A DNA stretch of 64,000 nucleotides from NCBI RefSeq assembly GCF_001017125.1, contig NZ_JXOJ01000002.1, positions 745,017 to 809,016 on the forward strand. Reading direction: 5' to 3'. Numbering within the stretch: position 1 is the first letter of the stretch; each line of letters begins with the position of its first letter. The stretch comes from Methanoculleus sediminis. GTDB lineage: Archaea > Halobacteriota > Methanomicrobia > Methanomicrobiales > Methanoculleaceae. A program made the translations under genes and the position numbers. The notes under the pieces were generated by a model. That model had not been told where the DNA came from. It saw only the letters and a program-made list of their open reading frames with translations, and did no database searches. Shown one piece after another: positions 53,869 through 64,000 of this stretch.

Positions 53869-54252
53869 TCAGCTTCCATTGTCATCTACGATCTGTTGCG
53901 CCCAAGCCTCACCTTCGGCCGTCAGGCGGTAGATGATCCAGTTCCCCTGTGCCTCGCCAGCGATCAGATTCGCTTTCTTCAGGACACCAAGGTGGTAGGA
54001 GAGTTTCGAGTCTGCAATGCCGAGCACCGCCTTGACGACGCAGACGCAGAGCGGCTGCACGGAGAGCATCGTGAGGATCTTGAGACGAAGCGGATCGCCG
54101 AGCGCACGGTGGACACTGCTCTCCCGCTCAAGCACCGCATCGTCCGGCAACTGTTCTATGAGCCCTGCAATCCCGCCACACTGACAGAGCGACTCTTCGA
54201 CTCCGGGAGGGAGGGGCAGGGATGTGTCCTGATACTCTTCGCCTCCTGTCAT
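53869..54252 (-). CDS. ArsR-family metalloregulator
   Basis: A 127-residue ArsR/SmtB-type repressor with a winged helix (HRALGDPLRLKILTMLSVQP, LSYHLGVLKKANLIAGEAQG). Cysteines suitable for a metalloid site lie at the amino end (SLCQCGG, about 21-27) and before the recognition helix (PLCVCVVKAVL, about 67-77). The latter resembles the ELCVC(D/E)L site of arsenite-sensing members. It reads away from the permease-thioredoxin array to the right, and its likely operators lie at 54637-54658 and 59345-59362. Confidence 0.9.
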   Translation of the reverse strand: MTGGEEYQDTSLPLPPGVEESLCQCGGIAGLIEQLPDDAVLERESSVHRALGDPLRLKILTMLSVQPLCVCVVKAVLGIADSKLSYHLGVLKKANLIAGEAQGNWIIYRLTAEGEAWAQQIVDDNGS

Positions 54253-54289
54253 CCAACCATCACACTCTTCTTTCGAGATAATACGAAAC

Positions 54290-54311
54290 GAAAGTACCTA
54301 TAATCTTTCGC
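54290..54311. promoter_or_regulatory. Inverted repeat at the arsR promoter
   Basis: CGAAAG-N10-CTTTCG, 38 bp upstream of the arsR ATG and overlapping an AT-rich TATA-like stretch. It might be an autoregulatory site, but its sequence differs from the TTTCAA-N6-TTGAAA type sites. Confidence 0.35.
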
Positions 54312-54362
54312 TGCTACCGCGCGAGGCACGAGCTAACCGTTCGACAGCAAAGGAGAAAAAGC

Positions 54363-54581
54363 ATGGACATCAGAACCGCCGGTTTGCTCGTCTGTTCTCA
54401 CGGTTCTGGGCCTGCTTCTGGTCTCCACCGATACGGGCTCCTCGACCCTGCCCGGTCGCGGAACCTCACTGACGCCGTTGTGAGTCCCGTTCCTGTTAAA
54501 CCGTTCATGGCTGTCGAAAAGGCTATTCGGGAGATCTACCGGACGAGCCTGACGGGGCTCTACCGCAAGCCCACCGGCTGA
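54363..54581 (+). CDS. Doubtful 72-residue frame, possibly a decayed small gene
   Basis: A frame with a good ribosome site (AAAGGAG, 7 bp before the ATG) but no recognisable family. The amino end MDIRTAGLLVC looks like the start of a signal or membrane peptide. The continuation of that hydrophobic stretch is in the next frame, SVLTVLGLLLVSTDTGSS, which suggests a one-base frameshift near 54395. The rest (FMAVEKAIREIYRTSLTG) is unassigned. It may be a pseudogene or no gene at all. Confidence 0.3.
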   Translation: MDIRTAGLLVCSHGSGPASGLHRYGLLDPARSRNLTDAVVSPVPVKPFMAVEKAIREIYRTSLTGLYRKPTG

Positions 54582-54636
54582 CCCATACTTCAACTCTTTT
54601 TGAAACCAGAACATTTATCGGTGGTGATGCCCATCT

Positions 54637-54658
54637 TGTTTCAAATAATGTTGAAACA
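54637..54658. promoter_or_regulatory. Putative ArsR operator
   Basis: Perfect inverted repeat TGTTTCAA-N6-TTGAAACA, located between a TATA-like ACATTTATC (54611-54619) and the start of the first gene of the permease array at 54676. It covers the predicted transcription start. A related site lies at 59345-59362. Confidence 0.65.
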
Positions 54659-54675
54659 GCGTGGAGCGTAACACC

Positions 54676-54816
54676 ATGGCAGACGACACCAGCAAAAACC
54701 GGAAGGAAGGCACCGCTGGAAGGTTCAAGAGACTCCTTGCACCGGAGAGTGACTGCGGCTGCTGCTGCGGCAACGTGAAGATTGTGCCGAAGAAAGCGGA
54801 CGAGAAGCAGGAGTGA
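54676..54816 (+). CDS. 46-residue Cys-rich microprotein
   Basis: A very small protein with a basic helix (SKNRKEGTAGRFKRLLAPES) followed by a cysteine knot DCGCCCGNVKIVPKK and a charged tail. Four cysteines within five residues point to metal or metalloid binding. It is the first gene after the ArsR-type operator and precedes the ArsP-like permease by 123 bp. A frameshifted paralogue lies at 60640-60776 with the same order of helix, CGCG and IVPK. The size is below usual gene-finding cut-offs. Function inferred: a small metallochaperone or sensor in the export system. Confidence 0.7.
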   Translation: MADDTSKNRKEGTAGRFKRLLAPESDCGCCCGNVKIVPKKADEKQE

Positions 54817-54939
54817 CCGGAAGCGGAGCATGGCAGGAGATGGGGGTCGAGGGGTTCCATACCAGGGCGGAGAAGTTGCAGCCCGTCACCGGTGGCGTAC
54901 GACTCTCAGGAGAGGGAACAGGCAGGTGAGTGAGCGACC

Positions 54940-55845
54940 ATGGATGCCGCTTCGAACCTGATCACCGCCGGACAGTTCTTCGTCGTCATCGCCGGGGAAC
55001 TGGTTCTGCTCTTTGTGGGGATCACCTTCCTCGTCGGGCTCCTCCAGGCGTACATTCCCGAAGAACGGATCCGGAGCGTGCTCGCCGGGAGGCGGCAGGG
55101 TGCCGGGAATGTCCTTTCTGCCGGGTTCGGGGCCCTCACCCCATTCTGCTCCTGCTCGACGATCCCGATCCTGCTCGGCCTCCTCGACATCGGGGTCCCG
55201 TTCGGGGTCTGCATGTCGTTCCTGCTCGCCTCCCCGCTCTTGAACCCGGTGATCCTCGCCCTCCTCGTGGCGCTCGTCGGGGTCATCCCGACCGCCATCT
55301 ACGCCGCCGTCACCTTCACGGCCGCAGTCGTGCTGGGCTGGCTCCTCGGCCGGTTCGGGTACGAACGCTACGTGAAGGACGTCATGGTCGAAGGCCGGCC
55401 GGAACCCTGCGACTGCAACAGCAGCCACGGGACGCGGATTCGTGCTGCGTTCTCATTCGCGGTCAGTCTCTTCCGGCAGGTCTTCCCCTACCTCCTGCTC
55501 GGCGCGGGGATCGGGGCGTTCATCTACGGGTTCATCCCCGGAGACCTGATCGTCTCTCTCGCGGGGCCGGACAACCCTCTCGCCATCCCGGTCGCGGCGG
55601 TCATCGGCATCCCGATGTACATCCGGGCGGAGACGCTCATCCCCGTGAGCGCCGTCCTCCTCTCGAAGGGAATGGGCATCGGCGCCGTGATGGCGCTGAT
55701 CATCGGCGGTGCGGGAGCGAGCATCCCGGAAGTGACGCTGCTTGCCGCGATCTTCGAGCGGCGCCTTCTTGCCGCGTTCGTGGTGATCGTCCTCGGGGTC
55801 GCCGTCCTGGCCGGTGTGGCATTCCAGGCCCTTGCCGTCATCTGA
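54940..55845 (+). CDS. ArsP-type permease (DUF318), first copy
   Basis: A 301-residue membrane permease with about eight helices in two similar halves. The helix motif TPFCSCSTIP (68-77, with C70 and C72) and the mirrored GAGASIPEVTLLAAIFERR near the end are typical of the DUF318/ArsP_1 family, whose members include organoarsenical exporters. A short Cys motif EPCDCNSS lies in the cytoplasmic loop near 155. It is the first large gene of the array, followed by another permease of the same superfamily 41 bp later. Confidence 0.88.
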   Translation: MDAASNLITAGQFFVVIAGELVLLFVGITFLVGLLQAYIPEERIRSVLAGRRQGAGNVLSAGFGALTPFCSCSTIPILLGLLDIGVPFGVCMSFLLASPLLNPVILALLVALVGVIPTAIYAAVTFTAAVVLGWLLGRFGYERYVKDVMVEGRPEPCDCNSSHGTRIRAAFSFAVSLFRQVFPYLLLGAGIGAFIYGFIPGDLIVSLAGPDNPLAIPVAAVIGIPMYIRAETLIPVSAVLLSKGMGIGAVMALIIGGAGASIPEVTLLAAIFERRLLAAFVVIVLGVAVLAGVAFQALAVI

Positions 55846-55886
55846 ATCGCGGATTGAGTATACAAGAACTGAGAAAGGAACAGACC

Positions 55887-56966
55887 ATGATCGATATCCT
55901 CCTCGGCGCTCTGGCATCCGGACTTGCCTCCGTGCTCGACTACCTCTCGGCGCACGTCCTCACCTGCCTGGTCCCGGCGTTCTTCATCGCCGGCGCCATC
56001 GCCGCGTTCGTCAAGAAGGACGCGATCCTGAAGTACTTCAGCCCGGACACTCCAAAATACATCTCCTACGGGCTGGCATCGGTATCAGGGACGGTCCTTG
56101 CCGTCTGCAGCTGCACCATCCTCCCGATATTTGCCGGCATCCTCAAGAAAGGGAGCGGGATCGGGCCGGCGACGACGTTCCTCTTCGCGGGACCGGCCAT
56201 CAACATCCTCGCGGTCATCTACACTGCCTGGGTTCTTGGCTTCGATCTGGGTATTGCCCGGGCGATCTCTGCGGTCGTCCTCGCCATCGTCATCGGGCTT
56301 GCCATGGCGTTGATCTTCCGGTCGACGGACGTCGAGACGCTCAAGAAGAAGGCGATGGCGCCGAGCGTCGCCGGGGCGTGCGAGGAGGAGAAGCCGCGCT
56401 GGGTCACGCCGGCGTTCTTCGCCCTCCTGGTCGGGGTGCTGGTCTTCGGGGCCTCGCCGCTTGAGTGGGCGTTCCGGCTCTCGATCGTCTACATCCTCAC
56501 CCTCGCGATCGCCGTCCTGCTCATCTACTACTTCGATCGCGACGAGGTGACCGACTGGGGGCTGGAGACCTGGGACCTGACGAAGAAGATCTTTCCCATC
56601 CTCATCGGGGGAACCTTTCTCGTCGGGATCATCGCGTTCTTCCTCCCGCCGGAGACCTTCCAGCCCTACTTCGGGAACAACTCGCTCGGCGCAAACTTCC
56701 TTGCGGCCGTTGTCGGGATGATCCTCTACATGCCGACACTCTTGGAGGTCCCGATCATCGGCACCACCTTCGGCTACACCACCGGACACATGGCCGCAGG
56801 GCCGGCGCTCGCTCTCCTGCTCGCCGGCCCGACGATCAGCCTCCCCTCCGTCCTGGTCATCTCCCGGATCATCGGGGCGAAGAAGACGGCAGCCTACGTG
56901 GGGCTGGTGGTCGTCTTCGCGACCGTCGCCGGGTTCCTCTACGGGAACGGCATGCTGCTTATCTAG
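55887..56966 (+). CDS. ArsP-type permease (DUF318), second copy
   Basis: A 359-residue permease with about ten helices. It has its own Cys pair VCSCTILP (73-80), a long middle loop with KKKAMAPSVAGACEEEKPR, and the second-half motif AGPTISLPSVLVISRIIGAK. It is not a close copy of the first permease but belongs to the same superfamily. GAAAGGAAC lies about 7 bp before the ATG at 55887. Two different permeases in one unit suggest either two substrates or a heteromeric exporter. Confidence 0.88.
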   Translation: MIDILLGALASGLASVLDYLSAHVLTCLVPAFFIAGAIAAFVKKDAILKYFSPDTPKYISYGLASVSGTVLAVCSCTILPIFAGILKKGSGIGPATTFLFAGPAINILAVIYTAWVLGFDLGIARAISAVVLAIVIGLAMALIFRSTDVETLKKKAMAPSVAGACEEEKPRWVTPAFFALLVGVLVFGASPLEWAFRLSIVYILTLAIAVLLIYYFDRDEVTDWGLETWDLTKKIFPILIGGTFLVGIIAFFLPPETFQPYFGNNSLGANFLAAVVGMILYMPTLLEVPIIGTTFGYTTGHMAAGPALALLLAGPTISLPSVLVISRIIGAKKTAAYVGLVVVFATVAGFLYGNGMLLI

Positions 56967-56976
56967 GAGAGAACCC

Positions 56977-57246
56977 ATGGAGACAGAGAAGCGAGAGAAA
57001 CCCTGCTGCGCCGCCGAAGCCCTGCGCCGCGTCCGCCGGATCGAGGTCGGCGGGGTCGTCGTCGGGCTCACGATGCTCGACGATATTCTGGCCGACGTCA
57101 TCGATTGTGATATCTCAGGCGAAGCCGCTATCGGCGACGAACTCATCAGACAGGTAAAGATCTACAACTACATCCCGAAGGAGGCGGAACCGCTCTACCG
57201 GGCGGCGCTCCTTTTAGAGTACCAGAACGAGGTGAAGAAACAATGA
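56977..57246 (+). CDS. Small protein of the permease-thioredoxin cluster
   Basis: An 89-residue soluble protein beginning METEKREKPCCAAEALRRV and continuing IEVGGVVVGLTMLDDILADV and DELIRQVKIYNYIPKEAEPL. The amino-terminal CC pair and the helix-rich remainder are notable. I have no firm family name; such proteins seem to accompany these permeases in methanogens, which I recall only weakly. It starts 11 bp after the permease and overlaps the thioredoxin start by 4 bp (ATGA), so it is cotranslated with it. Confidence 0.7.
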   Translation: METEKREKPCCAAEALRRVRRIEVGGVVVGLTMLDDILADVIDCDISGEAAIGDELIRQVKIYNYIPKEAEPLYRAALLLEYQNEVKKQ

Positions 57247-57476
57247 AGGTAGAAGTGCTCGGAACCGGCTGCGCCAAGTGCAAGCGGCTTGCAAAGAATG
57301 TTGAAGCGGCGATCAAAGATCTCGGCATCGAGGCCGAACTCGTCAAGGTCGACGACATCACCGAGATCATGAACCGCGGCGTGATGCTGACCCCCGCCCT
57401 CGCCGTCGACGGCGAACTCAAGGTCTCCGGCCGGGTGGCGGACGTCAAAGAGATCAAGGAGATCCTGCAGGGGTGA
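57243..57476 (+). CDS. Small thioredoxin-like protein (redox-active disulfide protein), first copy
   Basis: A 77-residue thioredoxin-fold protein of the TM0996/MTH895 type: GTGCAKCK places the CxxC at C10 and C13, and VMLTPALAVDGELKVSG supplies the cis-proline. Such proteins are disulfide reductases of archaea and deep-branching bacteria. It overlaps the upstream small gene. A hairpin separates it from a second copy. It probably reduces cysteines of the cluster proteins or their substrate. Confidence 0.93.
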   Translation: MKVEVLGTGCAKCKRLAKNVEAAIKDLGIEAELVKVDDITEIMNRGVMLTPALAVDGELKVSGRVADVKEIKEILQG

Positions 57477-57496
57477 GACCCCTTTTTCCCCTGCAG
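57465..57496 (+). promoter_or_regulatory. Hairpin between the two thioredoxin genes
   Basis: Arms CTGCAGGGG and CCCCTGCAG enclose a loop holding the stop codon and five T. It could attenuate or process the transcript between the paralogues. Confidence 0.45.
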
Positions 57497-57509
57497 TGGA
57501 GTCTGAGAG

Positions 57510-57752
57510 ATGGTGCTGGTTGAAATCTTCGGAACCGGCTGCGCCAAGTGCCGGCGGATGAACAAGAACGTCGAGATCGCGGTCGGGGAACTCAAGATCG
57601 ATGCGGAGATCCGCACGATCGAGAGCCTCGATGCGATGATCGAGCGGGGTGTGATGCTGACGCCGGCGCTCTACGTCGACGGCGAGGCCAAAGTCGTCGG
57701 CCATGTCCCCTGCGTCGAGGATATAAAACAGATACTGCTTGGAGTGAAGTGA
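57510..57752 (+). CDS. Small thioredoxin-like protein, second copy
   Basis: An 80-residue paralogue of the preceding gene: GTGCAKCR with CxxC at C11 and C14, VMLTPALYVDGEAKVVG with the cis-proline, and a third cysteine in HVPCVEDIKQI. The extra cysteine and the diverged helix suggest a different partner. The next gene begins 1 bp after its stop. Confidence 0.93.
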   Translation: MVLVEIFGTGCAKCRRMNKNVEIAVGELKIDAEIRTIESLDAMIERGVMLTPALYVDGEAKVVGHVPCVEDIKQILLGVK

Positions 57753-57753
57753 G

Positions 57754-58614
57754 ATGACGGAACAGACAGTGCCGCAGTGCACCTGCGGGGGCGGCGCGGA
57801 GCCGGCAGGCGGACCGAAACGGATCATCTTCGCCTGTGCCGGCGCATCGAAGGCCGGACAGCTCACAAACGAGGCCGCCGTCCGGTTAACGAAGGAAGGA
57901 TACGGGAATATCGCCTGCACGGCCTCCCTCGCCGTCTCTACACCCTCGATCATGAAAAATGTCGAGGCGGCGGACGAGGTGTTCGTCATCGACGGCTGCC
58001 CGGTCGGCTGCGCCCGCCAGATCGCCGAACGGGCCGGGGTTACACCCGATCAGGAGATCGTGGTCACGGACCTCGGGATCGAGAAGGGCGGGAGCCTCGC
58101 CCTCTCCGAAGAGGACGTGGAGACGGTCGTCTCCGCCGCCTGGGAGGGGCGGGGAAGAGAGAAGCAGGAGCAGAAGCCTGAGGGCTCCGGTGGATGCGGC
58201 TGTGGTTGTGGATGCGAAGAATCGACGGATACCCTCATCGTCGAATGGCGGCATATCGGAAGAGACATCGAGAACACCTGCGAACGGTGCAGCGAGACCG
58301 GGAAGACGGTGAGAGAAACAGTCGATCGGATTCGCGCAGCCCTTGAAGATACAGGCATCACGGTTAAATTCATCGAGAACGTCCTTCCGCACGATGCGAT
58401 AGCAGACTCAAACATCATCCTCTTCAACGGCGTACCACTCGAGGATCTCATCGAAGGCATGGAAGTTACCAGCACACCCTGCGCCTCCTGCGCCTGCATC
58501 ACCGGGCAGGATGACGTCGAGTGCCGTGCGGTCGATTACAGCGGCGAGCGTTACGAGTCGATCCCGCCCGAACTGATCGCCCGTGCGGTACTGAAGGCGC
58601 TTGGGCTGGAGTGA
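57754..58614 (+). CDS. Fusion of a DGC-type zinc-binding domain and DUF2703
   Basis: A 286-residue fusion. The first part (residues 22-135) is a DGC-type putative zinc-binding protein: IFACAGASKAGQLTNEAAVR, NIACTASLA and IDGCPVGCARQ. A Cys-rich linker CGCGCGCEES (about 148-157) follows. The second part (160-286) is a DUF2703 protein: LIVEWRHIGRDIENTCERCS, LFNGVPLEDLIEGMEV, CASCACIT and YESIPPELIARAVLKALGLE. A free-standing DUF2703 paralogue is at 62793. The abundance of paired cysteines fits metalloid or metal handling; the exact reaction is unknown. Confidence 0.8.
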   Translation: MTEQTVPQCTCGGGAEPAGGPKRIIFACAGASKAGQLTNEAAVRLTKEGYGNIACTASLAVSTPSIMKNVEAADEVFVIDGCPVGCARQIAERAGVTPDQEIVVTDLGIEKGGSLALSEEDVETVVSAAWEGRGREKQEQKPEGSGGCGCGCGCEESTDTLIVEWRHIGRDIENTCERCSETGKTVRETVDRIRAALEDTGITVKFIENVLPHDAIADSNIILFNGVPLEDLIEGMEVTSTPCASCACITGQDDVECRAVDYSGERYESIPPELIARAVLKALGLE

Positions 58615-58618
58615 TACT

Positions 58619-58840
58619 GTGAAGAAGAAAGTCCTCTTCGTCTGCACCCATCGTTCTGCACGCCCACAGGTGGTGGAGGGCGGGATCTGCCCCTTCTTCC
58701 CCCGGGTGAAGGGGGAGATCCACCGGGAGTTTCCCGATCCGTTGAATCTCGCCGGCACCGATGATGAGATCATGGCCGACGTCCGGCGGATCCGGGACGA
58801 GGTCACCATCCGGATCGATACGGCGTTCGGGGCGGTCTGA
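58619..58840 (+). pseudogene. Internally truncated arsenate reductase (LMW phosphatase type)
   Basis: A 73-residue frame starting at GTG. It begins KKKVLFVCTHRSARPQVVEG, the P-loop of low-molecular-weight phosphatase/ArsC proteins, and ends with FPDPLNLAGTDDEIMADVRR and IRDEVTIRI, the carboxy part of the same family. The family length is about 130-140 residues, so some 60 central residues are missing. In the P-loop, the usual Asn is Arg and the usual Ser after the Arg is Pro (CTHRSARP). Both the deletion and the changed loop suggest loss of activity. It lies between two DGC-containing genes. Confidence 0.7.
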
Positions 58841-59188
58841 ATGGCGTTCACCGTCATCACCTGTTCCGGGGTCTCGAATCCCGGGAAACTGACCGCCCAG
58901 ACCGGGCCGGCGCTCATGCGCCGGTGCGGCGGGAGGATCGAGGCGTGTATCGCGGCAACCCGGCCGACGGCGTCGCTGGAGGCCACGGTCCGGCACGCGG
59001 ATCGCATCCTGGTGCTGGACGGGTGCGGCGATTGCTGCGGGAGGAAGAAGTTACAGGCGCTCGGGGTCGAGCCGCACCTGCATCTTGTTGCAACTGACTG
59101 CGGCATCGCAAAGAACGGGATGGCCGAACCCCGGTTCGACGAGATCGAGCGCCTCTCGGCCGCCGTTATGGATGCGATCAGGGGATAA
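58841..59188 (+). CDS. DGC-type putative zinc-binding protein
   Basis: A 115-residue stand-alone DGC-domain protein: VITCSGVSNPGKLTAQTGPA, IEACIAATRPT and VLDGCGDCCGRKKLQALG. It is related to the first domain of the fusion at 57754. It begins right after the truncated arsenate reductase stop. The conserved cysteines suggest a metal or metalloid site. A T-run follows at 59205. Confidence 0.82.
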   Translation: MAFTVITCSGVSNPGKLTAQTGPALMRRCGGRIEACIAATRPTASLEATVRHADRILVLDGCGDCCGRKKLQALGVEPHLHLVATDCGIAKNGMAEPRFDEIERLSAAVMDAIRG

Positions 59189-59204
59189 AGGCCGGCTCCA
59201 GACC

Positions 59205-59210
59205 TTTTTT
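59205..59210 (+). terminator. T-run terminator
   Basis: Six T, 17 bp after the DGC gene stop. It would end the first transcript of the array before the next promoter. Confidence 0.5.
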
Positions 59211-59310
59211 GCTGGCAGGTTTCTGACCGGCTCTTTCGCTCTCCATGCCAGCTCGGGCAGGCTGCTTTCCCACCGGCGGCGATCGCTTCTCCCGGTACTC
59301 ACCCGAATGA

Positions 59311-59320
59311 ATTATATATC
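59311..59320 (+). promoter_or_regulatory. TATA box of the thioredoxin-lipoprotein unit
   Basis: ATTATATATC, 71-80 bp before the lipoprotein start. It is the same decamer as the TATA at 20521. Confidence 0.55.
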
Positions 59321-59344
59321 CGGTTGAACAACAGGTCAGCGTCA

Positions 59345-59362
59345 TTTCAAGATATCTTGTAA
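59345..59362. promoter_or_regulatory. Putative second ArsR operator
   Basis: TTTCAA-GATATC-TTGTAA, with a perfect 12-bp inner palindrome CAAGATATCTTG (59348-59359). It matches the TTTCAA-N6-TTGAAA pattern at 54637 except for one base and sits just after the predicted transcription start. Confidence 0.6.
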
Positions 59363-59390
59363 TGATGTCCCGGCACCGGGGGTGTCCCTG

Positions 59391-59930
59391 ATGAGACGAA
59401 CACACATGAGTAACTCCGAACCCGGGCGCACACAGGAACAGTTCCCCTGCAGCGCCCCCGCCCGGAAGATCCTGCCGATCGCTGCGCTGTCGGTCATCCT
59501 GGCGTTGACCGCCCTCTCTGCAGGATGCATGACAGCACCCGGCGGAGCGGATGCCGCATCAGTCTCGCCGCTCAACGGCACCGTCACGAAAGTCGAGGTC
59601 ATCCACTTCACCGCGCCGAGCCAGTGCTACTCCTGCGTGGTGCTCGGTGACTACGCCGAGGAGACCGTGAAGACGCACTTCCCCGAAGAACTCGGCTCCG
59701 GGAAGGTGATCTTCGACCACATCGATATCGCCGACCCGGGAAAGAAGGAGATCGTCGAGCGCTATGGTGCGACCGGCTCGTCGCTCTGGCTCGGCACCTA
59801 CGACGACCAGGGTGGATTCTACAAAGAAGAGGATACCCGGGTCTGGTACAGACTCAACGATAAACCCGGATTCATGCAGTACCTCAATGCGCTGATCGAG
59901 ATGCGCCTTGCAGGGGACTTCTCGCAATGA
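59391..59930 (+). CDS. Thioredoxin-like lipoprotein
   Basis: A 179-residue exported lipoprotein: signal segment (about 26-44), lipobox SAGC (C46), then a thioredoxin-like domain with VIHFTAPSQCYSCVVLGDYA, a CxxC at C79 and C82. The domain resembles nitrophorin-free small envelope thioredoxins rather than classical DsbA. It overlaps the CcdA-type gene by 4 bp. Together they may reduce disulfides or metalloids at the outer face of the membrane. GGGGGTG lies about 7 bp before the ATG at 59391; an ATG at 59406 is also possible. Confidence 0.8.
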   Translation: MRRTHMSNSEPGRTQEQFPCSAPARKILPIAALSVILALTALSAGCMTAPGGADAASVSPLNGTVTKVEVIHFTAPSQCYSCVVLGDYAEETVKTHFPEELGSGKVIFDHIDIADPGKKEIVERYGATGSSLWLGTYDDQGGFYKEEDTRVWYRLNDKPGFMQYLNALIEMRLAGDFSQ

Positions 59931-60643
59931 GCGTGATGGGGTTCATGGAGACGATGGGGACGAACAGCGTTCCTCTCGTCGCCGCGTTCTTCATCGGGCT
60001 GATGATGGCCCTCTCCCCCTGTCCGCTCGCGACGAACGTCGCCGCGATCGGTTATCTCTCCCGCCGGATAGGGAGCCCGGGGCAGACCTTCCTCGCCGGG
60101 TCGCTCTACAGCGCGGGGAGGATGGTCGTCTACGTCGGGCTCGCGGCGTTGATCGTCATCTTCGGCCTCTCTGTCCAGGGGATCTCGCTCTTCCTCCAGT
60201 CCTGGGGGGAGATGCTGGTCGGCCCGCTGCTGATCGCCATCGGGGTCGTGATGCTCGATCTCGTCCCGCTCCCCTCATGGGGCGGCGGCAGCAGGCGGTT
60301 TGCCGCGTTCAAGGAGCGGGTCGCCGATAAGGGCCTCGTGGGAAGTTTTCTCCTCGGCGTGCTCTTCGCGCTGACCTTCTGCCCCTTCTCGGCGGTTCTC
60401 TTCTTTGCGATGCTCGTCCCGCTGGCGCTCCGGACCTCCGACCCACTCGGGGTGCCGGCGGTCTTTGCCGTCGCGACCGCTCTGCCGGTGATCGCGTTCT
60501 CGCTGCTCATGGTGACCGGGATCGCGAAGGTGGGGAATGCGATGAAGGCGGCGGAGACGTTCGAGTACTGGACGCGGCGGATCGTCGGGGTGCTCTTTGT
60601 CGGGATCGGGGCCTATCTTCTCGTGGCAATGCTGGTCGCGTGA
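59927..60643 (+). CDS. CcdA/DsbD-type thiol transport membrane protein
   Basis: A 238-residue membrane protein with about six helices. The conserved cysteine motifs MALSPCPLATN and ALTFCPFSAV, with the CP pattern, are those of CcdA/DsbD, which carry electrons from cytoplasmic thioredoxin to the outer face. Its start overlaps the thioredoxin lipoprotein and its stop overlaps the start of the frameshifted Cys-rich microprotein. It is the natural electron supplier of the lipoprotein and would draw on the small thioredoxins at 57243 and 57510. Confidence 0.88.
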   Translation: MSVMGFMETMGTNSVPLVAAFFIGLMMALSPCPLATNVAAIGYLSRRIGSPGQTFLAGSLYSAGRMVVYVGLAALIVIFGLSVQGISLFLQSWGEMLVGPLLIAIGVVMLDLVPLPSWGGGSRRFAAFKERVADKGLVGSFLLGVLFALTFCPFSAVLFFAMLVPLALRTSDPLGVPAVFAVATALPVIAFSLLMVTGIAKVGNAMKAAETFEYWTRRIVGVLFVGIGAYLLVAMLVA

Positions 60644-60776
60644 CAGGCGGGAGTGAGAAAAAGACGAAGGATGCACCGGCTCAGGGGTAAAGAAACTCTT
60701 CTCTTCCGGCTGCGGTTGCGGAACATGGATCGTCCCGAAGACGAAGACGGAAGTATCCGAGCCGAAAGAGGAGTAG
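60640..60776 (+). pseudogene. Frameshifted paralogue of the Cys-rich microprotein
   Basis: A GTG overlaps the CcdA-type stop (GTGA). Reading from it gives TGGSEKKTKDAPAQG and then a stop. The following frame continues VKKLFSSGCGCGTWIVPK and TKTEVSEPKEE to a TAG at 60774. One extra base in the GGGG run (60687-60690) would join them into a 45-residue protein that parallels the intact microprotein at 54676 (basic helix, CGCxCG, IVPK, acidic tail). It is either a decayed gene, a translational frameshift site or a sequencing error. Confidence 0.65.
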
Positions 60777-60784
60777 ACAGGTAG

Positions 60785-60860
60785 TGCGGGGTCGAGGGCA
60801 CATCCCTCCTCTCCGCAGTCTTTGAGCGGAAGACCGTGCGAACGCTGGCGGCCTCTGTGG
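60785..60860 (+). pseudogene. Possible remnant of an ArsP-type permease end
   Basis: The frame after a TAG at 60782 reads GVEGTSLLSAVFERKTVRTL. This resembles the second-half motif of the permease at 54940 (IPEVTLLAAIFERRLLAAF), with the same TLL-A-FER order. It follows the broken microprotein just as the intact permease follows the intact one, so a decayed duplicate of that gene pair is likely. The similarity is short. Confidence 0.4.
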
Positions 60861-61057
60861 GCCGGAATACCCTTGACAGTTCCATGGCATCACCTACGGC
60901 CCGTACTCGCCTGATAACGTGTGTTTTTATATTTCAACTCTAGAGTATTCTCCAGGTTGGGTCCCGCCGTGACCGGGGAGATCGTTAACGAAATACTGAG
61001 CTGCGCACAGACGCCCGCGTCTTTCGCCGGCGGCCGGGCTGGTCAGGGGGAGATGGC

Positions 61058-61987
61058 ATGCCGAACGTAATCGAGGCCGCCCGCCTCACGAAGACTTTCG
61101 GCGCCGTCACTGCCGTGGACCGCGTCTCGTTCGAGGTTCGGCGGGGCGAGATCTTCGGGTTCCTCGGGCCGAACGGCGCCGGGAAGACCACCACCACGCG
61201 GATGCTCACCGGCGTCGTCCCGATGGACGGCGGGAGCGTGAGGATCTTCGGCCACGATATCCGAAAAGAACCCGTCCGGGCGAAACAGCGGTTCGGCGTC
61301 GTGCCCGAGACCTCGAACGCCTACGTCGAGCTCACCGCGTGGCAGAACCTCATGCTGATGGGCGACCTCTACGGGATCGGCCGCACCCACTCAGAGCGGC
61401 GGTCACGCGATCTCCTCGAGACCCTCGGTCTCTACGGGAGGAGGGACCAGAAGGTGCGGGGCTACTCGAAGGGGATGAAGCAGCGGCTCATCCTCGCCAT
61501 GGCGCTCCTTCACGAGCCCGAGCTCCTCTTCCTCGACGAACCGACGAGCGGGCTCGACGTGCAGAGCACGCAGACGATCCTCGTCCTGCTGCGCGACCTG
61601 AACACGGACGGAACCACCATCTTCCTCACCACCCACAACATGGAGGAGGCGAACCGGCTCTGCGATCGGATAGGCATCATCCGGGCCGGGAAGATCGTCG
61701 CGATCGATGCCCCAGAGAGGCTGAAGACCGCGATCGACCGCCTGCACCGGCTTGAGGTGAGCTTCGACCGGCCGGTCTCCGCCGACGTCCTCGCGGGACT
61801 CGACGGCGTGGCCGAAGCGGACCGGACGGGGGATAAGTGGCGGATCGTTACGGAGGATCCGGATCTCGTCATCCGGTCGCTCGTGGCCTTCAGCAGCGAC
61901 TGCGGTGCGGCTATCCTTACGTTAAACACCCTCGCCCCGTCGCTCGACGAGGTCTTCCTGCGGCTGACCGGGGAGGAGCGGCCGTGA
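61058..61987 (+). CDS. Drug-exporter-type ABC ATPase
   Basis: A 309-residue ABC ATPase of the DrrA/daunorubicin type: Walker A FLGPNGAGKTTTTR (about 38-51), signature YSKGMKQRL (about 137-145), Walker B LLFLDEPTSGLD and the H-loop TTHNMEEANRLCD. The carboxy 90 residues are the usual regulatory tail of this group. GGGGGAGATG lies just before the ATG at 61058. It overlaps the permease start by 4 bp. As the export partner in this array, it may remove a thiol conjugate or drug, which is inference. Confidence 0.92.
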   Translation: MPNVIEAARLTKTFGAVTAVDRVSFEVRRGEIFGFLGPNGAGKTTTTRMLTGVVPMDGGSVRIFGHDIRKEPVRAKQRFGVVPETSNAYVELTAWQNLMLMGDLYGIGRTHSERRSRDLLETLGLYGRRDQKVRGYSKGMKQRLILAMALLHEPELLFLDEPTSGLDVQSTQTILVLLRDLNTDGTTIFLTTHNMEEANRLCDRIGIIRAGKIVAIDAPERLKTAIDRLHRLEVSFDRPVSADVLAGLDGVAEADRTGDKWRIVTEDPDLVIRSLVAFSSDCGAAILTLNTLAPSLDEVFLRLTGEERP

Positions 61988-62739
61988 ATCCGGCGGCTTA
62001 CGGCGAGCAGGCGCGGCGGGCGTGGGCGATCGCGAGGAAAGATATCCGCGTCTATTACCTCAAGGGCCCGGTGCTCATCTTCGGGATCTTCATGCCGGTC
62101 TTCCTCTTCCTCGCCTTCTTCCTGGGCGGCCGGGACCTCCCACTCGCGTTCCTCCTCTCCGGGCTGGTGGGGATGACCCTCTTCTTCACCGCGACCGCCG
62201 TCTCGCCGGCGATCTTCCCCTGGGAAGGGCAGGCAAGGACGCTCGAACGGCTTGCCGCCTGCCCGGTCACCATCGAGGCGATCGTCCTCGGGGACATGAT
62301 CGCCTCCGTCCTCTTCGGGATCGGGGTCACGGCGGTCACCATCCTCATCGCGGTCGGGCTCGGCCTGCCTCTCCTGCACGGCATCGTGCTCGGGGTATCA
62401 ATCCCCATCGCCGCGTGCTGTTTTTCGGCAATCGGCATGCTCCTTGCCGTCCCCCCGACGAACGTCCCCTCGAACATCATGATGCTCTCCACCCTCCTGA
62501 AGTTCCCGCTCGTCTTCATATCCGGCATCTTCCTCCCCCTGGAGCAGATGCCGGCGTGGGGGCTCATGCTTGCGGCCTGCTCGCCGCTCACCTACTTCAC
62601 GGACATTGTCCGCTACGCTTTTTCCGGCGCACACCACTTCCCGGTGATGGTCGATATCGCGGCGCTCACGCTCTTTGCCCTGGTCTTCACCGCCGCCGCG
62701 ATGCGCCTGCACAGGCGAAGCATGCCGCGGAGGATCTGA
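61984..62739 (+). CDS. ABC-2-type permease
   Basis: A 251-residue DrrB-type permease with six helices, starting at a GTG that overlaps the ATPase stop (GTGA). The family segment FISGIFLPLEQMPAWGLMLA near 185-204 and YFTDIVRYAFSG are typical. With the ATPase it forms a complete exporter. The DUF2703 gene follows after 53 bp. Confidence 0.9.
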   Translation: MNPAAYGEQARRAWAIARKDIRVYYLKGPVLIFGIFMPVFLFLAFFLGGRDLPLAFLLSGLVGMTLFFTATAVSPAIFPWEGQARTLERLAACPVTIEAIVLGDMIASVLFGIGVTAVTILIAVGLGLPLLHGIVLGVSIPIAACCFSAIGMLLAVPPTNVPSNIMMLSTLLKFPLVFISGIFLPLEQMPAWGLMLAACSPLTYFTDIVRYAFSGAHHFPVMVDIAALTLFALVFTAAAMRLHRRSMPRRI

Positions 62740-62792
62740 TCCGGTGCAGCGACAGGAAGATGTCGTGTCGGTGCCAACAGTGGAGATGCACC

Positions 62793-63191
62793 ATGAAGAA
62801 GGAACTCGTCATCGAATGGAAGCACACCGGAAGAGACGTTGAAAAGACCCGTGAAGAGTTCGAGGAGACCGGGATGGCCCTTGCGGCGGTCCTCGCGGAG
62901 ATCCGCATGCTCCTCGAGATGGAGGGGGTCGGCGTCCGGGTGGTCGAGACGGTCCTCCCCGACGATGCCGCCGCAGAGTCGGAGTGCCTCCTCTTCAACG
63001 GGATCCCGGTCGAGCAGCTCCTCGAAGGGGTCGAGGTGACCGCGACGGCCTGTGCCTGCGCATCATGTGAATCCTGCGAGACCTGCGGGGAGGAGGAGTG
63101 CCGGACGCTCCGCTACAACGGCGAGGAGTACGAGGCGATCCCGCCGGAACTGATCGGGCGGGCCGCCGCAAAAGCGCTCGAGATGGAGTGA
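62793..63191 (+). CDS. DUF2703 protein
   Basis: A 132-residue protein homologous to the second half of the fusion at 57754: LVIEWKHTGRDVEKTREEFE, LLFNGIPVEQLLEGVEV, a Cys-rich loop CACASCESCETCGEEEC (about 88-104) and YEAIPPELIGRAAAKALEME. Compared with the fusion it lacks the cysteine pair near its amino end. The dense cysteine loop is the likely ligand site. It is the last gene of the array before a strong hairpin. Confidence 0.85.
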   Translation: MKKELVIEWKHTGRDVEKTREEFEETGMALAAVLAEIRMLLEMEGVGVRVVETVLPDDAAAESECLLFNGIPVEQLLEGVEVTATACACASCESCETCGEEECRTLRYNGEEYEAIPPELIGRAAAKALEME

Positions 63192-63235: not shown

Positions 63236-63317
63236 AGGTCTCCCGAACGCCGAAGTGCGTGGGCCCGGCCCCGCAGCGGGGGGGAGACTTTTTCAACCTG
63301 TTTTCAATGTAGTGTAC

Positions 63318-63428: not shown

Positions 63429-64000
63429 GTGGTAGCCATTACAAGACGTTGTTATCTTCTGATCCTCCTCCTCGGCATCTGCGGGGTGCTCCTCTGCGCC
63501 TCCGCCGCCTGCACGGCCACGCAGGGGACGCCCTCCCCTGCCGAGAACCGCACGATCACCGATATGGCGGGCCGGACCGTCGTCGTCCCGTCGGAGATCG
63601 AGAGCATCCTCTGCACATCGCCGCCGTCGACGATGCTCGTCTACATGATCGCGCCCGGCCGGCTCGCCGGCTGGAACTTCGCCCCGGTGAAGGAGTACAC
63701 CCCCGGGCGGTACGCAGCGCTCCCGGTCGTCGGAGGCTGGTTCGGGAAAGAAACCGGCAACTACGAGACGTTCATCTCGATGCACCCCGACATCATCGTC
63801 GAGGGCTACACCACCGACGGCGGGGCGGCGCTTGCCTCGGTCGCCGAACGGCAGCGGAAGATGGGCCCCATCCCGGTCGTCGCCGTCGAGGACACCGTCA
63901 ACGCCACCGGCTACTCCGCACCCATCAGGTTCATGGGCGATCTCCTCGGCGAGGAGGAGCAGGCCGAAGCGATGATCGCCTACTACGAGGGCGTCCTCGC
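63429..64000 (+). CDS. ABC transporter substrate-binding lipoprotein (3' end outside window)
   Basis: A partial protein, 190 residues to the right edge. The signal peptide (LLILLLGICGVLLCASAAC) ends at a lipobox-like SAAC. Then comes a periplasmic-binding fold of the iron-siderophore/cobalamin type: ITDMAGRTVVVPSEIESILC, VVGGWFGKETGNYETFISMH and PDIIVEGYTTDGG. The start is a GTG at 63429; GGAGAGGA lies about 10 bp upstream. The cognate permease and ATPase would lie beyond the window. Iron chelate, heme or corrinoid could be the ligand; the sequence does not decide. Confidence 0.82.
   Translation, partial: MVAITRRCYLLILLLGICGVLLCASAACTATQGTPSPAENRTITDMAGRTVVVPSEIESILCTSPPSTMLVYMIAPGRLAGWNFAPVKEYTPGRYAALPVVGGWFGKETGNYETFISMHPDIIVEGYTTDGGAALASVAERQRKMGPIPVVAVEDTVNATGYSAPIRFMGDLLGEEEQAEAMIAYYEGVL

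Follow-up and report, generated by a model that had tools for sequence, protein, structure and literature searches.

What is the role of a run of thiol-rich and metalloid-related genes in the archaeon Methanoculleus sediminis, and does it correspond to any known system? The locus occupies positions 53869-63191 of a 64-kb stretch of DNA (hereafter the window) from a host genome of 2.49 Mb in 15 contigs; an arsR gene stands divergently on the minus strand and all the cluster genes after it are on the plus strand. A sequence-only reading had named these genes one by one, and every one of them is indeed present, in the order it gave, according to family matches. We think, from the sequence, that in Methanoculleus the locus is probably an operon for arsenic detoxification that is repressed by ArsR and geared to trivalent and organic arsenicals. 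It is an operon known in kind and new in composition. What appears to be new here is the palindrome TTCAA-N6-TTGAA, which seems to mark a regulon, and a DrrAB-type exporter that stands where relatives have ACR3. The operator, the genome-wide absence of ACR3, the exchange of ACR3 for DrrAB and an arsM gene elsewhere in the genome all go beyond the sequence-only reading.

Family calls are based on Pfam and NCBIfam profile scores read against the cut-offs of the models. Co-occurrence was surveyed in a sample of 120 genomes from the order Methanomicrobiales, and gene maps and operator counts come from 60 stretches (960 kb) picked for carrying these cluster genes. The lists of ArsP and DGC are partial, and proximity counts that involve them are minima. 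Ratios of nonsynonymous to synonymous substitution rates (dN/dS) compare the cluster genes of the window, other than the second microprotein, with four relatives.

The arsR promoter and its putative operator

The repressor (53869-54252, minus strand) belongs to the ArsR/SmtB family (HTH_5 42.5 bits; NF033788 74 bits, cut-off 55). It carries one CxC in the motif LCVC, which we take to be of the metalloid type, and another near the N terminus; among 34 unique sequences, window included, the LCVC cysteines C69 and C71 are kept in 33, C23 in 22 and C25 in 26. Between arsR and the first microprotein gene lie two exact copies of TTCAA-N6-TTGAA, TTCAACTCTTTTTGAA at 54589-54604 and TTCAAATAATGTTGAA at 54640-54655, 51 bp apart, with a TATA-like stretch (catttatc, seen by eye) between them. 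No other palindrome of the form TTCAA-N(3-9)-TTGAA occurs in the window. In the host, the genome in which genome-wide rarity was checked, the exact site is found three times, twice at the arsR promoter; the third copy seems to lie inside a coding stretch and may be due to chance. A scan for sigma-70-type promoters and terminators gave nothing beyond shuffles that is of use for an archaeon.

The same spacing recurs across the 60 stretches, where 90 sites are observed against 0.33 expected under an order-1 model, all other spacer lengths between 0 and 15 giving only 0-3 sites each. Since these stretches were chosen for the cluster, the enrichment shows association. The exact operator is present in 49 of them and adjoins ArsR in 33 of the 48 that have ArsR; pairs 51-53 bp apart are also seen in L064, L065, L070, L072, L073 and L105. 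It also precedes units outside the main cluster, such as DUF169-ArsC-DGC-ArsF-ArsG in L084 and a separate ACR3-ArsF-ArsG-ArsC-DGC unit in L102. From its position, we infer that ArsR is the protein that binds this putative operator, and a single operator sequence makes the regulon testable.

Imperfect copies are a different matter. Within the window, sites with one mismatch lie before arsF (59346-59361) and before the downstream binding-protein gene (63292-63307), and both are weak evidence. Sites with 0-2 mismatches are found near 18/34 arsF genes versus 2/34 arsG genes, and they precede 7 of 11 binding-protein genes; they suggest a connection and nothing firmer, because they also occur near genes for ArsE (22/62), DGC (15/81), DUF2703 (5/48) and the 89-aa (amino acid) protein described below (5/44). 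We rejected the idea that they are specific to arsF: the arsF count stands out against the pooled other genes (49/269, p = 2.6e-5) and is not clearly higher than that for arsE alone (p = 0.13).

Exporters, redox partners and thiol-rich proteins

ACR3 is absent from the host genome at E<=0.001 (ArsB was not part of the search). In the slot that ACR3 occupies in relatives there is a DrrB-like permease of the ABC-2 type (ABC, ATP-binding cassette; 61984-62739; ABC2_membrane 61.4 bits), which scores 59 with the DrrB model TIGR01247, short of its cut-off of 223, and which follows a DrrA-type ABC ATPase (61058-61987; TIGR01188 319.9 bits, cut-off 312.45). This exporter precedes the same DUF2703 gene (the second copy of the window, 62793-63191, 74.5 bits) that follows ACR3 in relatives. 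Among 61 DUF2703 frames of the 60 stretches, the preceding gene is ACR3 in 11 cases (one of them, in L071, a 49-residue ACR3 remnant), Usp, which itself follows ACR3 in the common gene order, in 9, and an ABC permease in 7; of the others, 10 come after DGC, 12 form a fusion with it and 12 are varied.

In the DUF2703 tree, the second copy of the window falls in a clade (support 1.0) in which most of the outer members come after ACR3 and retain a CxxC. The DrrAB-paired copies are nested inside this ACR3-type clade and have lost the CxxC, a loss that is not tied to DrrAB, being also seen in L065 (after ACR3), L077, L115 and L120; the copy of the window retains a C-terminal cysteine cluster in the alignment. 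Of the seven copies paired with DrrAB, six group together (support 0.95), and the one from L081 clusters with L115, L120 and L065, the last of these paired with ACR3; the exchange of ACR3 for DrrAB may thus have taken place on one or two occasions. In the genus, ACR3 is missing from 5/7 genomes with the DrrAB-DUF2703 pair versus 1/15 of the rest (p = 0.004, kinship ignored); both are present in G058 and G072. DrrB relatives with at least 58% identity are found no more than 10 kb from the cluster in 22/46 cases, compared with 3/47 for more distant paralogues (p = 5e-6, kinship ignored).

The cluster has two ArsP-type permeases, a short form of 301 aa (54940-55845; ArsP_1 173.8 bits) and a long form of 359 aa (55887-56966; 249.3 bits), both above the ArsP_1 gathering score. 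The CSC motif of the short form is well kept (C70 in 36/36, C72 in 34/36), as are C27, C74 and C76 of the long form (36/36). Methylarsenite is a published substrate of ArsP (PMC6205960). It could plausibly arise inside the cell, because the genome has an ArsM, or arsenite methyltransferase (C8:920173; 348.9 bits, cut-off 263). The arsM gene adjoins a frame that resembles, by eye, a thioredoxin reductase.

The redox genes form a complete ArsE-ArsF-ArsG set split in two, since all three families score above their NCBIfam cut-offs. ArsE, thioredoxin-like and of the MTH895 family, is present twice (57243-57476 and 57510-57752; TIGR00412 108.7 and 86.3 bits, cut-off 62), the first copy matching PDB 1ilo (MTH895) with E 1.2e-21. 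ArsF (59382-59930; NF040494 91.7 bits, cut-off 60) is a CxxC lipoprotein, with no convincing sequence relative in the PDB, and ArsG (59927-60643; NF040495 268.3 bits, cut-off 200; DsbD_2 61 bits) is a membrane protein of the CcdA/DsbD_2 type. The cysteine pattern expected for a thiol relay, as the sequence-only reading had proposed, is borne out: the CxxC is kept in 61/61 unique ArsE and 33/33 ArsF sequences, the cysteine at the lipobox position of ArsF in 32/33 (lipobox assigned by eye), and the only cysteines in the ArsG of the window, C32 and C152, are each present in 32/32. Two cysteines together with DsbD_2 presumably make the pattern of a CcdA-type carrier. This suggests a thiol relay and fits poorly with the name "efflux permease", and the locus thus bears on the role of ArsG, as a permease by its published name or as an electron carrier by its invariant cysteines and Pfam family.

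The thiol-rich proteins are less familiar. The first DUF2703 of the window is fused to a DGC domain in a protein of 286 aa with a cysteine-rich linker, CGCGCGC (57754-58614; DGC 117.5, DUF2703 110.5 bits), one of 12 such fusions in the 60 loci; since ACR3 (and Usp) often lies between DGC and DUF2703 in relatives, the fusion may follow the deletion of an exporter. Fusions are seen in two families of the order (e.g. L082:9345-10244 and L106:10553-11458). A second DGC protein lies at 58841-59188 (78.8 bits). In 28 diverse DUF2703 sequences, the CxxC-less copies excluded, five cysteines are invariant (C24, C27, C91, C94 and C105), and C8, C62 and C66 of DGC are kept in 21/21. Neither family has a convincing sequence relative in the PDB. 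The predicted structure of DUF2703 is confident (predicted local distance difference test, or pLDDT, 93.5), and most of the 50 rows of its fold search are thioredoxin-, SelW- or KaiB-like (Z 6.7-8.2, root-mean-square deviation 2.4-4.6, 73-90 residues aligned), a range of Z that can reflect a common arrangement. The top Foldseek row of DGC is a low-molecular-weight (LMW) protein tyrosine phosphatase (PTP) at E 6.5e-3, and its Z of 7.2 with pI258 ArsC is tied with many Rossmann-like folds; the DGC model looks Rossmann-like, and nothing more specific.

Two further families have no Pfam or NCBIfam match at E 0.1 or better. A cysteine-rich microprotein of 46 aa (CGCCCG..KIVPK; 54676-54816) has 35 matching frames in 30/60 loci, the two of the window included, and a dN/dS of 0.27-0.35. 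Its second copy (60657-60776) is degenerate, as the sequence-only reading had stated, missing part of the cysteine cluster and the usual start codon ahead of it; a relative in G022 is likewise shortened in the cysteine cluster. The 89-aa conserved protein (56977-57246) has a CC near its N terminus, the two cysteines being kept in 39/40 and 38/40. Its family has a YNYxP motif and, in Methanoregula, a paralogue-like frame nearby on the opposite strand (L165:8224-8544); the family has no Pfam match above cut-off. Also in Methanoregula (L162, L182, L185), a frame of 262 aa resembling ProC, pyrroline-5-carboxylate reductase, by eye, has the 89-aa gene on one side and arsE on the other; L088 has a similar frame between DUF2703 and an ArsC remnant.

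The arsenate reductase of the window (58619-58840) is also broken, again in agreement with the sequence-only reading. It is the remnant of an LMW-type ArsC whose middle has been deleted, matching TIGR02691 positions 84-127 and TIGR02689 positions 1-19 only, where relatives have an intact ArsC of 135 aa. A sequencing or assembly error was considered and rejected, since the diverged genome L127 has the same shortened frame (79 aa). The dN/dS of the remnant is 0.65-1.24, from few changes (2-5 synonymous and 6-10 other), and that of the genes with true counterparts is 0.00-0.46; the value of 0.00 obtained for ArsF with L063 is based on two changes, that of ArsG in L081 comes from a piece of 35 residues, and a DGC comparison in L076 (29% identity, dN/dS 0.76) involves a paralogue and was set aside. 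These ratios indicate that the tested genes other than the ArsC remnant are under purifying selection.

How general is this association? Above family cut-offs, the 120 genomes number 68 with DUF2703, 31 with ArsG, 33 with ArsF, 91 with DGC, 96 with ArsP and 59 with ACR3. The check on co-occurrence in related genomes that the sequence-only reading had proposed came out in its favour, since at least 63 of the 74 copies of DUF2703 that score over 50 bits have ArsP, DGC or ArsG no more than 10 kb away, against about 4 by chance (a rough estimate, from 6 sites in 2.0 Mb). All 32 ArsG genes above cut-off are within 1.5 kb of ArsF, at least 27 within 10 kb of DUF2703, DGC or ArsP, and at least 21 within that distance of DUF2703 itself. 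The 60 stretches also carry ACR3 (32 stretches), ArsC (36 frames), Usp (16) and DUF169 (11). The recurring order runs from ArsR and a divergent microprotein through ArsP, ArsP, the 89-aa protein, ArsE, DGC, ArsE, DGC, ACR3, Usp, DUF2703, DUF169, ArsC, DGC, ArsF and ArsG to a second microprotein unit, with many gaps, no single stretch of the 60 holding every element.

Outside the methanogens, 14 of 19 DUF2703 loci from the genome scan (18 bacterial and one from a Lokiarchaeote) hold ACR3, ArsP, ArsE or ArsC in the stretch read; three of these 14 are from closely related symbionts, and L157 and L159 have one partner only. Those without an ars partner are L155, L161, L169, L172 and L177. A further locus, L174, labelled Clostridia bacterium, was left out of the bacterial count because its DUF2703 protein is identical to that of Methanocorpusculum parvum (L176); the kinds and sizes of the neighbours match as well, and L174 is probably a misbinned contig. 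Carriage by plasmids was considered and rejected: 3 plasmid records have a distant DUF2703 and 15 an ArsG-like protein, all below 60% identity, and a profile search of the 3 DUF2703 plasmid loci found no ACR3, ArsP, ArsE or ArsC.

Beyond the island, a gene for a Peripla_BP_2 binding protein (63429-64000, plus strand; PF01497 84 bits for the full protein) runs past the end of the window and is possibly a further unit of the regulon. From 63429 to about 66899 (L062:10446-13916) there follow one another this protein, a class I methyltransferase and a protein of 580 aa that combines Radical_SAM (AmmeMemoRadiSam-like, 103 bits, below the 220 cut-off) with a second Peripla_BP_2. G010 (L080) repeats the set, with the 580-aa frame split.

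A probable arsenic operon and its alternatives

If the locus is an arsenic operon, arsenical binding would release ArsR from the operators; electrons would flow from ArsE through ArsG to ArsF, from the cytosol to the outside, and at the outer face the ArsF end would reduce arsenicals that are pentavalent or aromatic. ArsP would export methylarsenite, which the ArsM of the host could make. The microprotein, DGC and DUF2703 would bind trivalent arsenic as thiolates and would pass it to ArsP and DrrAB as interchangeable exporters. Metalloid capture by these three proteins, the transport of arsenicals by DrrAB, the direction of the relay and the metal specificity are all parts that we infer from sequence. 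Methylated arsenic occurs in the anoxic sediments, digesters and paddy soils where methanogens live, and such an operon would place DUF2703, DGC, the microprotein and the 89-aa protein, all uncharacterised families, in arsenic biology. More tentatively, and with doubts that outweigh our confidence, we suggest that DUF2703 may be a further kind of arsenic chaperone, analogous to ArsD and serving the adjacent exporter, and that in Methanoculleus the client of DUF2703 may have switched from ACR3 to DrrAB, so that ATP would drive the pumping of trivalent arsenicals or of their conjugates with thiols; ArsE-ArsG-ArsF would then be a transmembrane line of reductant acting outside the cell, and not an efflux permease with a nitroreductase. 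If DrrAB did replace ACR3, it would represent an arsenical pump of the ABC type, one coupled to a partner protein rich in cysteine.

Several observations weigh against an arsenic operon of this kind. The exact operator is missing from 11/60 stretches, 11/74 DUF2703 copies are not near partners among the matches listed, and 8 of the 22 DUF2703 loci outside the methanogens, plasmids included, have no ars partner (14 do). ArsF and ArsG can be dispensed with: in the same genus, G028, G046 and G058 lack both and retain much of the rest. Foldseek gave no match for the DUF2703 model at E<=0.001, and the best Z, 8.2, is moderate. The published ArsEFG name of Chen, Zhang and Rosen (2019) reportedly makes ArsG an efflux permease. 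Finally, specificity is not readable from sequence, and antimony, mercury or selenium is a possible substrate.

One alternative is a general operon for soft metals or thiol stress (Hg, Cd, Sb, Se, reactive sulfur), with arsenic as one of several inducers. In its favour, a P-type ATPase (named by eye) is present in 8/60 stretches, the ArsP-like permeases match the SaoE and SO_0444 Cu/Zn models with scores far short of the cut-off, and a Methylomonas DUF2703 is found near a P-type ATPase and a resistance-nodulation-division (RND) pump without ars genes. We nevertheless consider it unlikely, the CxC motif of ArsR and the ACR3, ArsC and ArsEFG partners being of arsenic-type families. The redox trio could also be the electron supply of a cytosolic thioredoxin-dependent ArsC, and the island an ordinary arsenate operon in decay; such a role was proposed by Castillo and Saier in 2010, who found ArsC with the trio in 7/8 cases (PMC2963123), and an intact ArsC is found in 17 of our 33 stretches with ArsG. 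Against this, 16 of the 33 show no intact ArsC (some end at contig or fetch edges), and the ArsC of the window is broken. No intact ArsC was found in the operon, and a genome search that covered the LMW type, not Spx-type or other ArsC, gave one other ArsC-like gene (L190:7717-8418; C8, about 836.9 kb), an LMW-PTP protein with Gly at the position of the catalytic Cys (VLFIGTNNAAR, by eye). Decay also sits badly with the low dN/dS of ArsE, ArsF and ArsG where tested, and we regard this explanation as quite improbable.

A more serious challenge, to which we give somewhat less than an even chance, is that DrrAB exports drugs or lipids, is unrelated to the operon and simply lies next to it. The low score with the DrrB model would agree with this, as would the 24/46 close relatives that lie elsewhere in genomes or on contigs without the cluster and the fact that no operator-like site was found upstream of 28 ABC ATPase frames. 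The opposite is indicated by the proximity of close relatives (and not of paralogues) to the cluster, by the position of DrrAB in the place of ACR3 before the same DUF2703 clade, and by the absence of ACR3 from most genomes of the genus with the pair.

Comparison with known systems

The sequence-only reading thus holds for its metalloid theme (ArsR, ArsP and ArsE/F/G family matches and a shared operator), for the relay pattern and for co-occurrence, and fails in the isolation that it claimed from known systems. "No obvious single known counterpart" is too strong, because ArsEFG, the ars operons described in 2010 and a Prevotella plasmid share the core; the parts of the relay are ArsE, ArsF and ArsG, and their combination was already in print in 2010. 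Our search of the literature, partial in its coverage, found no description of this operon or its operator.

In the known ArsEFG system, the three genes are contiguous. All three are present here above NCBIfam cut-offs; the host is an archaeon, ArsE is doubled, and it is split from ArsF-ArsG by DGC, DUF2703 and DGC genes. The system was reportedly so named by Chen, Zhang and Rosen in 2019 for resistance to roxarsone and nitarsone. The plasmid of Prevotella nigrescens (NZ_CP072340) has the core in the form wHTH (winged helix-turn-helix)-ArsF-ArsG-thioredoxin-permease-ArsC-ACR3, and its annotation shows neither DUF2703 or DGC nor a microprotein or ABC exporter.

ArsD is a metallochaperone. DUF2703 resembles it in its conserved cysteines and its place beside exporters; it differs in that no sequence match to ArsD was found for the DUF2703 proteins here and ArsD is not among the rows of the fold search. 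In PMC3091736, profile methods put both in the thioredoxin-like clan. The ars cluster of Rhodococcus aetherivorans BCP1 (PMC6514093) has a DUF2703 beside acr3-arsC genes. Arsenate induces these genes, less than 10-fold in the case of DUF2703 and arsO; the cluster differs in having ArsO and in a DUF2703 that is not co-transcribed with arsC3.

The closest precedent in gene families is that of the ars operons of Castillo and Saier (PMC2963123), where the same three redox families are described and the two ArsP size classes, of about 300 and 400 aa, are comparable with the 301 and 359 aa found here. Compared with these, the operon of Methanoculleus is without intact ArsC or ACR3, and it adds the microproteins, DGC, DUF2703 and DrrAB.

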